Assembly (NCBI RefSeq): GCF_900101595.1
Contig: NZ_FMYY01000002.1
Span: forward strand, 1-64,000
Reading direction: 5' to 3'
Length of the DNA stretch: 64,000 nucleotides
Origin: Paenibacillus sp. cl123
Lineage (GTDB): Bacteria; Bacillota; Bacilli; Paenibacillales; NBRC-103111
A model generated the notes under the pieces. The model saw only the letters and a list, made by a program, of their open reading frames with translations. It did no database searches and had not been told where the DNA came from. The position numbers and the translations under genes are program-made. Shown in pieces: positions 25,156-27,097 of this stretch; the first letter of the stretch is position 1, and each line of letters starts with the position of its first letter.

Positions 25156-26013
25156 ATGAGCGTGGAACATAGTTATGTTCAGCATATTCAAGAAGCGGCT
25201 CAATGGATCAGCGACCAAATTGACAGGCGTCCTTTGCACATTGGCATGGTGTTAGGCTCCGGGCTGGGCGATCTGGCGCATCAGGTCGAACATCCGGTCA
25301 TCATCCCGTATGATCGGGTGCCTCACTTCCCGGTGTCTACCGTAGAAGGACATGCCGGACAGTTCGTCATCGGCGAACTGGAAGGGAAATCGGTTATCGT
25401 CATGCAGGGCAGGTTTCATTATTACGAAGGTTATTCGATGAAGAAGGTTGTTTTCCCCATCTATGTGATGAAGCAGCTGGGGGTGCAATCGCTCATCATC
25501 ACCAACGCCGCGGGCGGCATGAATCCCGCCTTCGCCGCGGGTGACCTGATGCTGATCGAGGATCATCTGAACATGACCGGCGATAACCCGCTGATCGGGC
25601 TGCATCATCCCGAGCTGGGCGTTCGCTTTCCCGATATGTCGCAGTCTTACAGCCGCGCCTACCGGGAGATGGCAAAGAGCGTGGCCGAGCGGATGGGGCA
25701 GGAGCGGGGCGAACCGATCCGGCTGCAATCGGGCGTTTATGCGGGCATCTCGGGCCCGAACTATTTGCCGCCGGCGGAGCTGACGATGCTCGCCAAGCTT
25801 GGAGGGGACGCGATCGGCATGTCGACGGTCGGCGAGGTGATCGCCGCCAGCCACGCGGGATTGAAGGTTCTGGGCATCTCCTGCATAACCGACATGGCGA
25901 TCGGCGAGCAGCTTGAGCCGCTGACCCATGAACAGGTGGTAGCGGTGGCGAATCGGACGAAGCCGGTGTTTATTGAGCTGGTGAAGCGGTTCGTAGCCGA
26001 AGTTGAAGTCTGA
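25156..26013 (+). CDS. Second purine nucleoside phosphorylase with divergent base-binding residues
   Basis: A 285-residue paralogue of the preceding gene with the same GSGLG and STVEGHAG phosphate motifs. At the purine-binding positions it differs: GPNYLPPAEL replaces GPSYETPAEI (Glu to Leu), and SCITDMAIG replaces SCISNMAAG (Asn to Asp). Asp at this site is found in 5'-methylthioadenosine phosphorylases and in adenosine-accepting variants of trimeric phosphorylases, so a preference for 6-aminopurine nucleosides is inferred. AAGGGAG precedes the ATG at 25156. A strong terminator follows. Confidence 0.88.
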   Translation: MSVEHSYVQHIQEAAQWISDQIDRRPLHIGMVLGSGLGDLAHQVEHPVIIPYDRVPHFPVSTVEGHAGQFVIGELEGKSVIVMQGRFHYYEGYSMKKVVFPIYVMKQLGVQSLIITNAAGGMNPAFAAGDLMLIEDHLNMTGDNPLIGLHHPELGVRFPDMSQSYSRAYREMAKSVAERMGQERGEPIRLQSGVYAGISGPNYLPPAELTMLAKLGGDAIGMSTVGEVIAASHAGLKVLGISCITDMAIGEQLEPLTHEQVVAVANRTKPVFIELVKRFVAEVEV

Positions 26014-26063
26014 TTGACGCGCTATGAGCGGCGATTCGCAGATTGCTGCGGCCCATTCTAAAG

Positions 26064-26108
26064 ACTGCTTTTTATCGATGACTCTCGTCGATAAGAAGCA
26101 GTTTTTTT
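26064..26108 (+). terminator. Terminator of the deoB-pun operon
   Basis: ACTGCTTTTTATCGA (26064-26078) pairs with TCGATAAGAAGCAGT (26088-26102) with one mismatch, followed by TTTTTT. Confidence 0.85.
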
Positions 26109-26232
26109 GAAATCCAAAAATGTGTAAGCTTCAGGCCGGCTGATTGTTCGATTTCATGGTGGTAAAAGTACGGCTTTATAAGAAGTCTAAAGCGATTTTC
26201 CCGGGCGCCGCTGCCAGGCTTGCCGTATTGCC

Positions 26233-26272
26233 AAAAAAATGCCCGCGCGCCTGAAGCGGTCAGGGCGTGGGC
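26233..26272 (-). terminator. Terminator of the 26-codon gene
   Basis: On the minus strand, GCCCACGCCCTGA (26272-26260) pairs with TCAGGCGCGCGGGC (26254-26241), one bulge, followed by a run of seven U (26239-26233). It begins 8 bases after the stop codon of the small gene. Confidence 0.8.
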
Positions 26273-26279
26273 GGCAAAA

Positions 26280-26360
26280 TTAGTTCGACTTCTTGGACCC
26301 TTTATCGCTGTTGCGAGTCGTGGTGTTCTGATTGCCGTGACCTTGCTGTTTGTTGGACAT
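26280..26360 (-). CDS. 26-residue hydrophilic peptide, putative forespore small protein
   Basis: A complete transcription unit only 27 codons long. GAGGAGGTG, a near-perfect ribosome-binding site, lies 8 bases before the ATG. The product starts MSNKQQGHGNQN and ends SKKSN; it is wholly polar (Asn, Gln, Lys, Ser, Thr, Gly), with no hydrophobic residue after Met1, resembling in composition the minor small acid-soluble spore proteins, but I cannot place it in a named family. A sigma-G-type promoter (GCATA, N17, CATACTA) lies about 70 bases upstream and a strong terminator follows. Forespore expression is inferred. Confidence 0.72.
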   Translation of the reverse strand: MSNKQQGHGNQNTTTRNSDKGSKKSN

Positions 26361-26692
26361 CGTCTGGCACCTCCTCGGATTGGGCTGCTAGTTACAGCTG
26401 CAAGCTTGCTGTCGGCGGTAAGCGCCACCGATAGTATGCGTCTACGCCACACGCTTATGCGCAAGCGCGGCGGGTAAGAAAAACCTGGACATCGGCCAGA
26501 TCCCCGAAGATCTCCGCTTACGACTCCATGCTCCTTCGGGAGGACCTTGTTTTCTCCAAAAAAAAGTTAGGCAAGGCCCAGAACGCTATATCGAAAGCAT
26601 GAATATCATGATACAATTGGGTAAAAAGAACTATACATTCATGCCTGATATAGGCCCTGTGAATGAGTTTTTCCGGAAAGGTGTGGCCAGCC
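26361..26692. other. 332-base gap around the small gene's promoter
   Basis: The left part holds the leader and sigma-G-like promoter of the 26-codon gene on the minus strand. From about 26461 to 26692 nothing coding is seen. A TACAAT near 26611 and an A/T-rich stretch before 26660 may contain the promoter of the YvyF-like gene, but I cannot assign a -35 box. Confidence 0.4.
26432..26460 (-). promoter_or_regulatory. Sigma-G-type promoter of the 26-codon gene
   Basis: Read on the minus strand: GCATA (26460-26456), 17 bases, CATACTA (26438-26432). The -10 is a perfect match to the forespore sigma-G consensus and the -35 fits GNATR. The same CATACTA box with a comparable spacer occurs upstream of spoVAA in this window. 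Confidence 0.65.
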
Positions 26693-27097
26693 ATGACGAT
26701 GCTTAAGGTCGCGAATTGTCCATCATGCGGTCAAGTATTTCAGAAAAATTTACGCAACCTGTGTCAAGGCTGCCAACGAGCCGTAGATGCCGATTTCACG
26801 GCATGCTCCGACTATTTGCGCAAGGCTCATAAGGCGACCACCTCGGAGCTTAGCGAAGCAACGGGCGTTTCGCTCCGGCAGATCCATGCTTTTATTAAAG
26901 AAAACAAGCTGCCGGCTACGTTTTACCCGGGCTTGACGTATCCGTGCAGCAGCTGCGGAGCGGGAGTCCGCAAGGGACATCTGTGTACGAGCTGCAGCGT
27001 TCGGCTGACTGCGGAGATCCGGCAGATGAGGGACAAAGAGGAAAAGGCGAAGGAGAGGGGAGCGGGCTTTCAGATCCGGGACCGACTTTCCTATTGA
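26693..27097 (+). CDS. YvyF-like zinc-ribbon protein (flagellar-operon protein family)
   Basis: A 134-residue protein with two Cys clusters: an N-terminal NCPSCGQVF and CQGC pair, and a later PCSSCGAGV with CTSC. Between them is a helix-turn-helix-like stretch, TSELSEATGVSLRQIHAFIKENKL. This order matches YvyF/TIGR03826 proteins coded beside flgM in Bacillus flagellar operons. Here it stands alone between nucleoside-salvage genes, so a flagellar role is uncertain. Start 26693 has AAGGTG about 9 bases upstream. The C-terminus is charged (RDKEEKAKERG). Confidence 0.7.
   Translation: MTMLKVANCPSCGQVFQKNLRNLCQGCQRAVDADFTACSDYLRKAHKATTSELSEATGVSLRQIHAFIKENKLPATFYPGLTYPCSSCGAGVRKGHLCTSCSVRLTAEIRQMRDKEEKAKERGAGFQIRDRLSY

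Follow-up and report, generated by a model that had tools for sequence, protein, structure and literature searches.

The window analysed here, a stretch of 64,000 nucleotides of Paenibacillus sp. cl123, contains on its minus strand a 26-codon gene that we consider likely to be an independently transcribed, order-specific microprotein gene, under sigma-G control in the forespore and encoding a cationic peptide similar to the small acid-soluble spore proteins (SASPs), with the spore core as its likely location. A forespore microprotein had been proposed in a sequence-only reading of this DNA, and the proposal is now supported by the conservation of both frame and promoter, along with separate sigma-G-type evidence from a partner gene. 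Its product is probably one of those small spore peptides that escape ordinary gene finding.

The unit occupies positions 26233-26460 and consists, in the order from promoter to terminator, of GCATA-N17-CATACTA, GAGGAGGTG, an ATG, 26 codons, a TAA, a hairpin and seven T (Table 1). The promoter elements and the 26-residue frame with its start (ATG at 26360) and stop (TAA, 26282-26280) are as the sequence-only reading had described them. A ribosome-binding site is also present, although 7 bases and not 8 separate it from the ATG, and the hairpin with seven U is found after the stop, with the distance from stop to stem corrected to 7 bases. In the terminator the hairpin extends from 26272 to 26241 and the T run from 26239 to 26233; the 3' region (26282-26228) folds with -24.8 kcal/mol (z -3.3, none of 200 shuffles being equally stable), in a structure that also pairs bases beyond the terminator stem. 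The hairpin, whose stem has unpaired bases in the fold, was missed by a simple terminator scan of the window. Since both neighbours are plus-strand genes, one for a phosphorylase (PF01048, 25111-26013) ending toward the unit and one for a zinc-ribbon protein (26663-27097) starting away from it, the microprotein unit stands alone in the window.

Table 1. Elements of the microprotein unit and their positions in the window
Feature	Position	Strand	Basis
-35 element GCATA of the sigma-G-type promoter	26456..26460	-	Sequence; top weight-matrix score among 24 genus loci
-10 element CATACTA, 17-base spacer from -35	26432..26438	-	Sequence; CATACTA kept in 40/137 upstream regions
Ribosome-binding site GAGGAGGTG (strong)	26368..26376	-	Sequence; SD-like string before the start of 132/137 copies
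Microprotein gene MSNKQQGHGNQNTTTRNSDKGSKKSN, 26 codons, TAA included	26280..26360	-	Frame conservation
Intrinsic terminator, GC-rich hairpin and seven T	26233..26272	-	Fold; terminator-like sequence in relatives

Regarding the surroundings of the gene, the product of the plus-strand zinc-ribbon gene is YvyF-like (TIGR03826, 109.6 bits, below the cut-off of 124.15), and relatives of this gene adjoin the microprotein gene in 26 of 80 named loci. Another protein of around 60 residues (EMTVKEALALTG.KF..NHKLET) is encoded on the same strand as the microprotein in 14 of the 80, its gene starting about 320-570 bases upstream (L097, L099-L101, L106 and others); Pfam and NCBIfam gave no match above cut-off for this EMTVKEALALTG protein.

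The distribution of the gene was evaluated at increasing taxonomic distance. With the single peptide as query, matches were obtained at E<=1 in 43 of 99 relatives and in 24 of the 25 genomes of the genus, the same 24 being recovered at E<=0.01 with a profile built from 34 members. At E<=1 this profile gave hits in 84 of the 104 genomes of the family, strong ones in 81 and weak ones (E 0.03-0.9) in three. At E<=0.01 it reached 136 of the 392 genomes of the order, which span 24 of 49 genera. Only two of 398 genomes matched in a class sample (E<=0.01), both inside the order and none beyond it, while a wider profile found the window genome alone among the 398 of a phylum sample (E<=0.01). No match resulted from a tblastn search of plasmids and phages with the peptide of a relative. 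Matches were obtained in 86 named relatives, among them Paenibacillus elgii, P. tyrfis, P. ehimensis, P. validus, several Cohnella and Gordonibacillus. Loci were fetched for 111 of the 136 matching order genomes and for 80 of these 86 relatives, many of them with identical sequences; the frame was found in 211 of 213 scanned loci, and once duplicates were removed 137 distinct loci and 123 distinct peptides were available. Loci L044 and L045 (weak matches with an internal stop) and L223 and L224 (no frame by the search pattern) were left out. The frame had been expected to be conserved in related genomes, and the genus and order counts bear this out: judged from sequence, it is a real gene, confined in the genomes sampled to the order of Paenibacillus and Cohnella. 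In three genomes a further weak match (E 0.4-0.7), some 150-250 bases from the main gene, is possibly a diverged tandem copy of it (G105:C28:68786-68869, G113:C227:19544-19627 and G119:C50:885785-885868).

A signature of purifying selection is evident in the microprotein frame. In 19 of the 24 genus loci, the five not 26 residues long being left out, pN was 0.054 and pS 0.62, so the dN/dS-type check suggested for the frame had a clear outcome (pN/pS about 0.09). We can practically discount that the ORF arose by chance or that its signal derives from the longer frames overlapping the gene, one antisense (26220-26477, plus strand) and one of 130 codons (26072-26464, minus strand): both stand in the ORF list, and one antisense frame likewise has pN below pS (0.08 vs 0.43), but that frame is the codon mirror of the sense frame and gives a weaker signal, the ends of the antisense frame vary among the loci translated on that strand, and the two remaining minus-strand frames show pN above pS, with ratios over 2.5 in the same genus set.

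The sigma-G promoter consensus used here is GHATR-N16-19-CATNHTA. It precedes 36 of the 137 distinct copies (mean 0.49 and maximum 4 in shuffles), and CATACTA is found upstream of 40 compared with 1.4 in shuffles, so that this element is conserved as anticipated, albeit not before every copy. A weight matrix was trained on 15 promoter sites of the partner gene described below, themselves chosen with this consensus; with it 65 of the 137 copies, which as related loci are not independent trials, exceeded the 99% shuffle level, where 1.4 would be expected. Within the genus 19 of 24 copies passed this level, the window site scoring highest, and the controls gave 2/137 on the reverse strand and 0/131 at 550-700 bases upstream. 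The strict motif is absent before 101 of the 137 copies. A relaxed motif, picked after inspection, accounts for 30 of them (1.9 in shuffles, 0/96 in the far control), and 71, most of them outside the genus of the window, have no clear promoter site under either motif. In some loci outside this genus (such as L103, L117, L134, L135 and L188) CATA-N17-18-CANN[AC]TA, a motif chosen after inspection, takes the place of the CATACTA promoter, as if, in an exploratory reading, the -10 element of such copies had drifted.

The exact pattern GHATR-N17-18-CATACTA occurs at 8 sites in the 7.27-Mb genome and at 8 in the backward control, so the pattern alone is no better than chance; on these counts it is the conservation of frame and promoter, rather than the promoter pattern itself, that exceeds chance. 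One of the exact sites lies upstream of an alpha/beta SASP gene (L163/L171) and another before an ORF (L165) that, by eye, we take to be TepA/ClpP-like. The fit of GCATA-N17-CATACTA to a sigma-G promoter, a feature of minor SASP genes, is upheld at the level of sequence by its conservation in relatives. Four of the seven SASP genes of the window genome have CATACTA or CATAATA upstream, joined in two cases by a GHATR box at a spacing of 17-18 bases, and the transcription of SASP genes is described as sigma-G-dependent (PMC3533761).

A further gene that carries this promoter type is linked to the microprotein gene. In 26 of 136 loci the microprotein gene is followed immediately, in the same orientation, by a gene for a two-cysteine protein of about 60 residues with the signature ESNYDC...NKC, whose family is present in 46 of the 99 relatives. 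Of the 22 genus genomes having both genes, 17 carry the partner on the same contig at a distance of about 15-26 kb; in the window genome it is located on another contig, behind GCATA-N17-CATAATA. One locus of the family is L242 (G000:C29:4455-4634, minus strand). Stand-alone partner copies were analyzed in 24 of the approximately 36 partner-bearing genomes, among the 46, that lack the adjacent arrangement: 15 of the 24 have the full sigma-G-type motif (shuffles, mean 0.1 and maximum 1) and 20 have CATA[AC]TA (shuffles, 0.7 and maximum 3). AlphaFold2 predicts two helices for the partner protein (residues 11-30 and 36-55; mean pLDDT 77.7). No family model in Pfam or NCBIfam was above cut-off for it; DUF2524 was considered and rejected, with E=0.015, below cut-off, and a model that also missed the partner in the window genome. 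With its promoter type, the partner family is put forward here as a candidate second uncharacterised forespore family.

A terminator-like sequence was found within 100 nt past the stop of 37 of the 137 microprotein copies, compared with 1.6 in shuffles, which together with the promoter indicates from sequence that both ends of the unit are conserved. Such sequences follow 36 of 111 copies lacking the partner gene and 1 of 26 copies with it, as would be expected if the microprotein-partner arrangement were an operon. A unit this short, bounded by a promoter and a terminator and followed in 26 of 136 loci by the partner gene, could also be a regulatory leader peptide or a small RNA, in which the transcript would matter and the peptide would not. 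We regard this as very unlikely, since synonymous sites vary while the amino acids are kept, the window has no same-strand gene between the microprotein and the terminator, the terminator-like sequences stand mainly behind copies without the partner, and Rfam gave no match at E<=1 over 26000-26700.

The peptides are 23-37 residues long across the 137 distinct loci. KQQG is present in all 137 copies, partly by construction, because some of the searches used KQQG as query pattern, and H (132 of 137), N12 (134), T13 (132) and D19 (135) are near-invariant, so that over the order the head is kept while the tail drifts. Net charge ranges from +1 to +7, with a mean of about +4.7, and after Met1 the 123 distinct peptides contain only 14 residues of I, L, V or F in total. 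The window peptide, described in the sequence-only reading as wholly polar, indeed has no large hydrophobic residue past Met1, and its relatives are alike: all 123 peptides are very small, polar products, as those of minor SASP genes are. Being polar, cationic and almost without hydrophobic residues, the microprotein is probably unstructured.

The frozen KQQG(H) head suggests a specific partner, and a core so nearly invariant exceeds the specificity that a mere filler would need, which counts against a SASP-like protein as the best explanation. The microprotein could instead be a specific forespore binding factor, whose head docks on one target, be it the ribosome, the two-cysteine partner or a nucleoid protein, and which contributes to establishing or ending dormancy. 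The invariance of the head against a drifting tail, the partner as next same-strand gene in part of the loci and the co-occurrence of both genes would agree with this; among 60 family genomes (G000-G059), tabulated by hand, 34 carry both genes, 7 and 6 just one or the other and 13 neither (Fisher p 2e-4, uncorrected for relatedness). On the other hand, the 13 genomes with a single gene, and a KQQG invariance that was partly built in by the searches, speak against such a factor, and we consider it unlikely. Similarly doubtful in our view is the broader proposal that the KQQGH...NTTTR...D peptide founds a class of dormancy effectors new to the forespore. Such a peptide would be disordered and 23-37 residues long, would dock by its head on one core target, and would share a sigma-G module of two genes with the helical two-cysteine protein.

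Our best reading continues to be that the microprotein works like a minor SASP while being outside the known Ssp families. Sigma-G RNA polymerase would read the gene inside the forespore, and the polar, cationic product would most likely be packed into the spore core, where it may bind anionic partners, either nucleic acid or ribosomes, and would be consumed upon germination, as supposed for minor SASPs. We infer forespore expression, core location, disorder and the binding role from the features described above. The family head, nearly frozen over an order, offers a clear target for mutagenesis, and a second uncharacterised protein family is tied to the same promoter type. If this reading holds, promoter and conservation combined can reveal forespore genes below 30 codons.

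Searches for known relatives gave no family in Pfam or NCBIfam at E<=10 for any of the 34 members, a query so short that remote kin could escape. Four PHROGs families with one member each (best E 0.047) and the sole match of a PDB profile search, SpoIIIAG (5wc3, E=4), were taken as chance. SspN (PF08177) and SspP (PF08179) were unmatched in the whole window genome at E<=1, with a positive B. subtilis control. The peptide strings had no match in the literature, and topic searches returned no paper on the peptide, judging by titles and abstract openings.

In comparison with known systems, the likeness to minor SASPs is supported in size, polarity and promoter, with no sequence homology to any named Ssp family. 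Like the microprotein, the minor SASPs of Bacillus (SspG-SspP and Tlp) are encoded by very small, lineage-restricted genes of spore formers, several of them missed in annotation (PMC3533761), although the microprotein is mostly shorter, with 23-37 residues against the 34-50 listed for SspK-SspP (PMC3533761, Table 2). Since minor SASPs are reported as lineage-restricted in comparative work (PMC3533761) and most of them as of unproven function (PMC9147052), a new lineage-specific SASP-like family would be expected in kind. Alpha/beta-type SASPs (PF00269; 8 matches and 7 genes in the window genome) share the promoter type with the microprotein in some of their genes, but they constitute a 59-position domain, and for the microprotein Pfam gave no match at E<=10. 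SpoVM, made under sigma-E control, forms an amphipathic helix that binds membranes, unlike the microprotein with its lack of large hydrophobic residues past Met1. Both are 26 residues long, and annotation often overlooks SpoVM of Bacillus (PMC3533761, Table 2).
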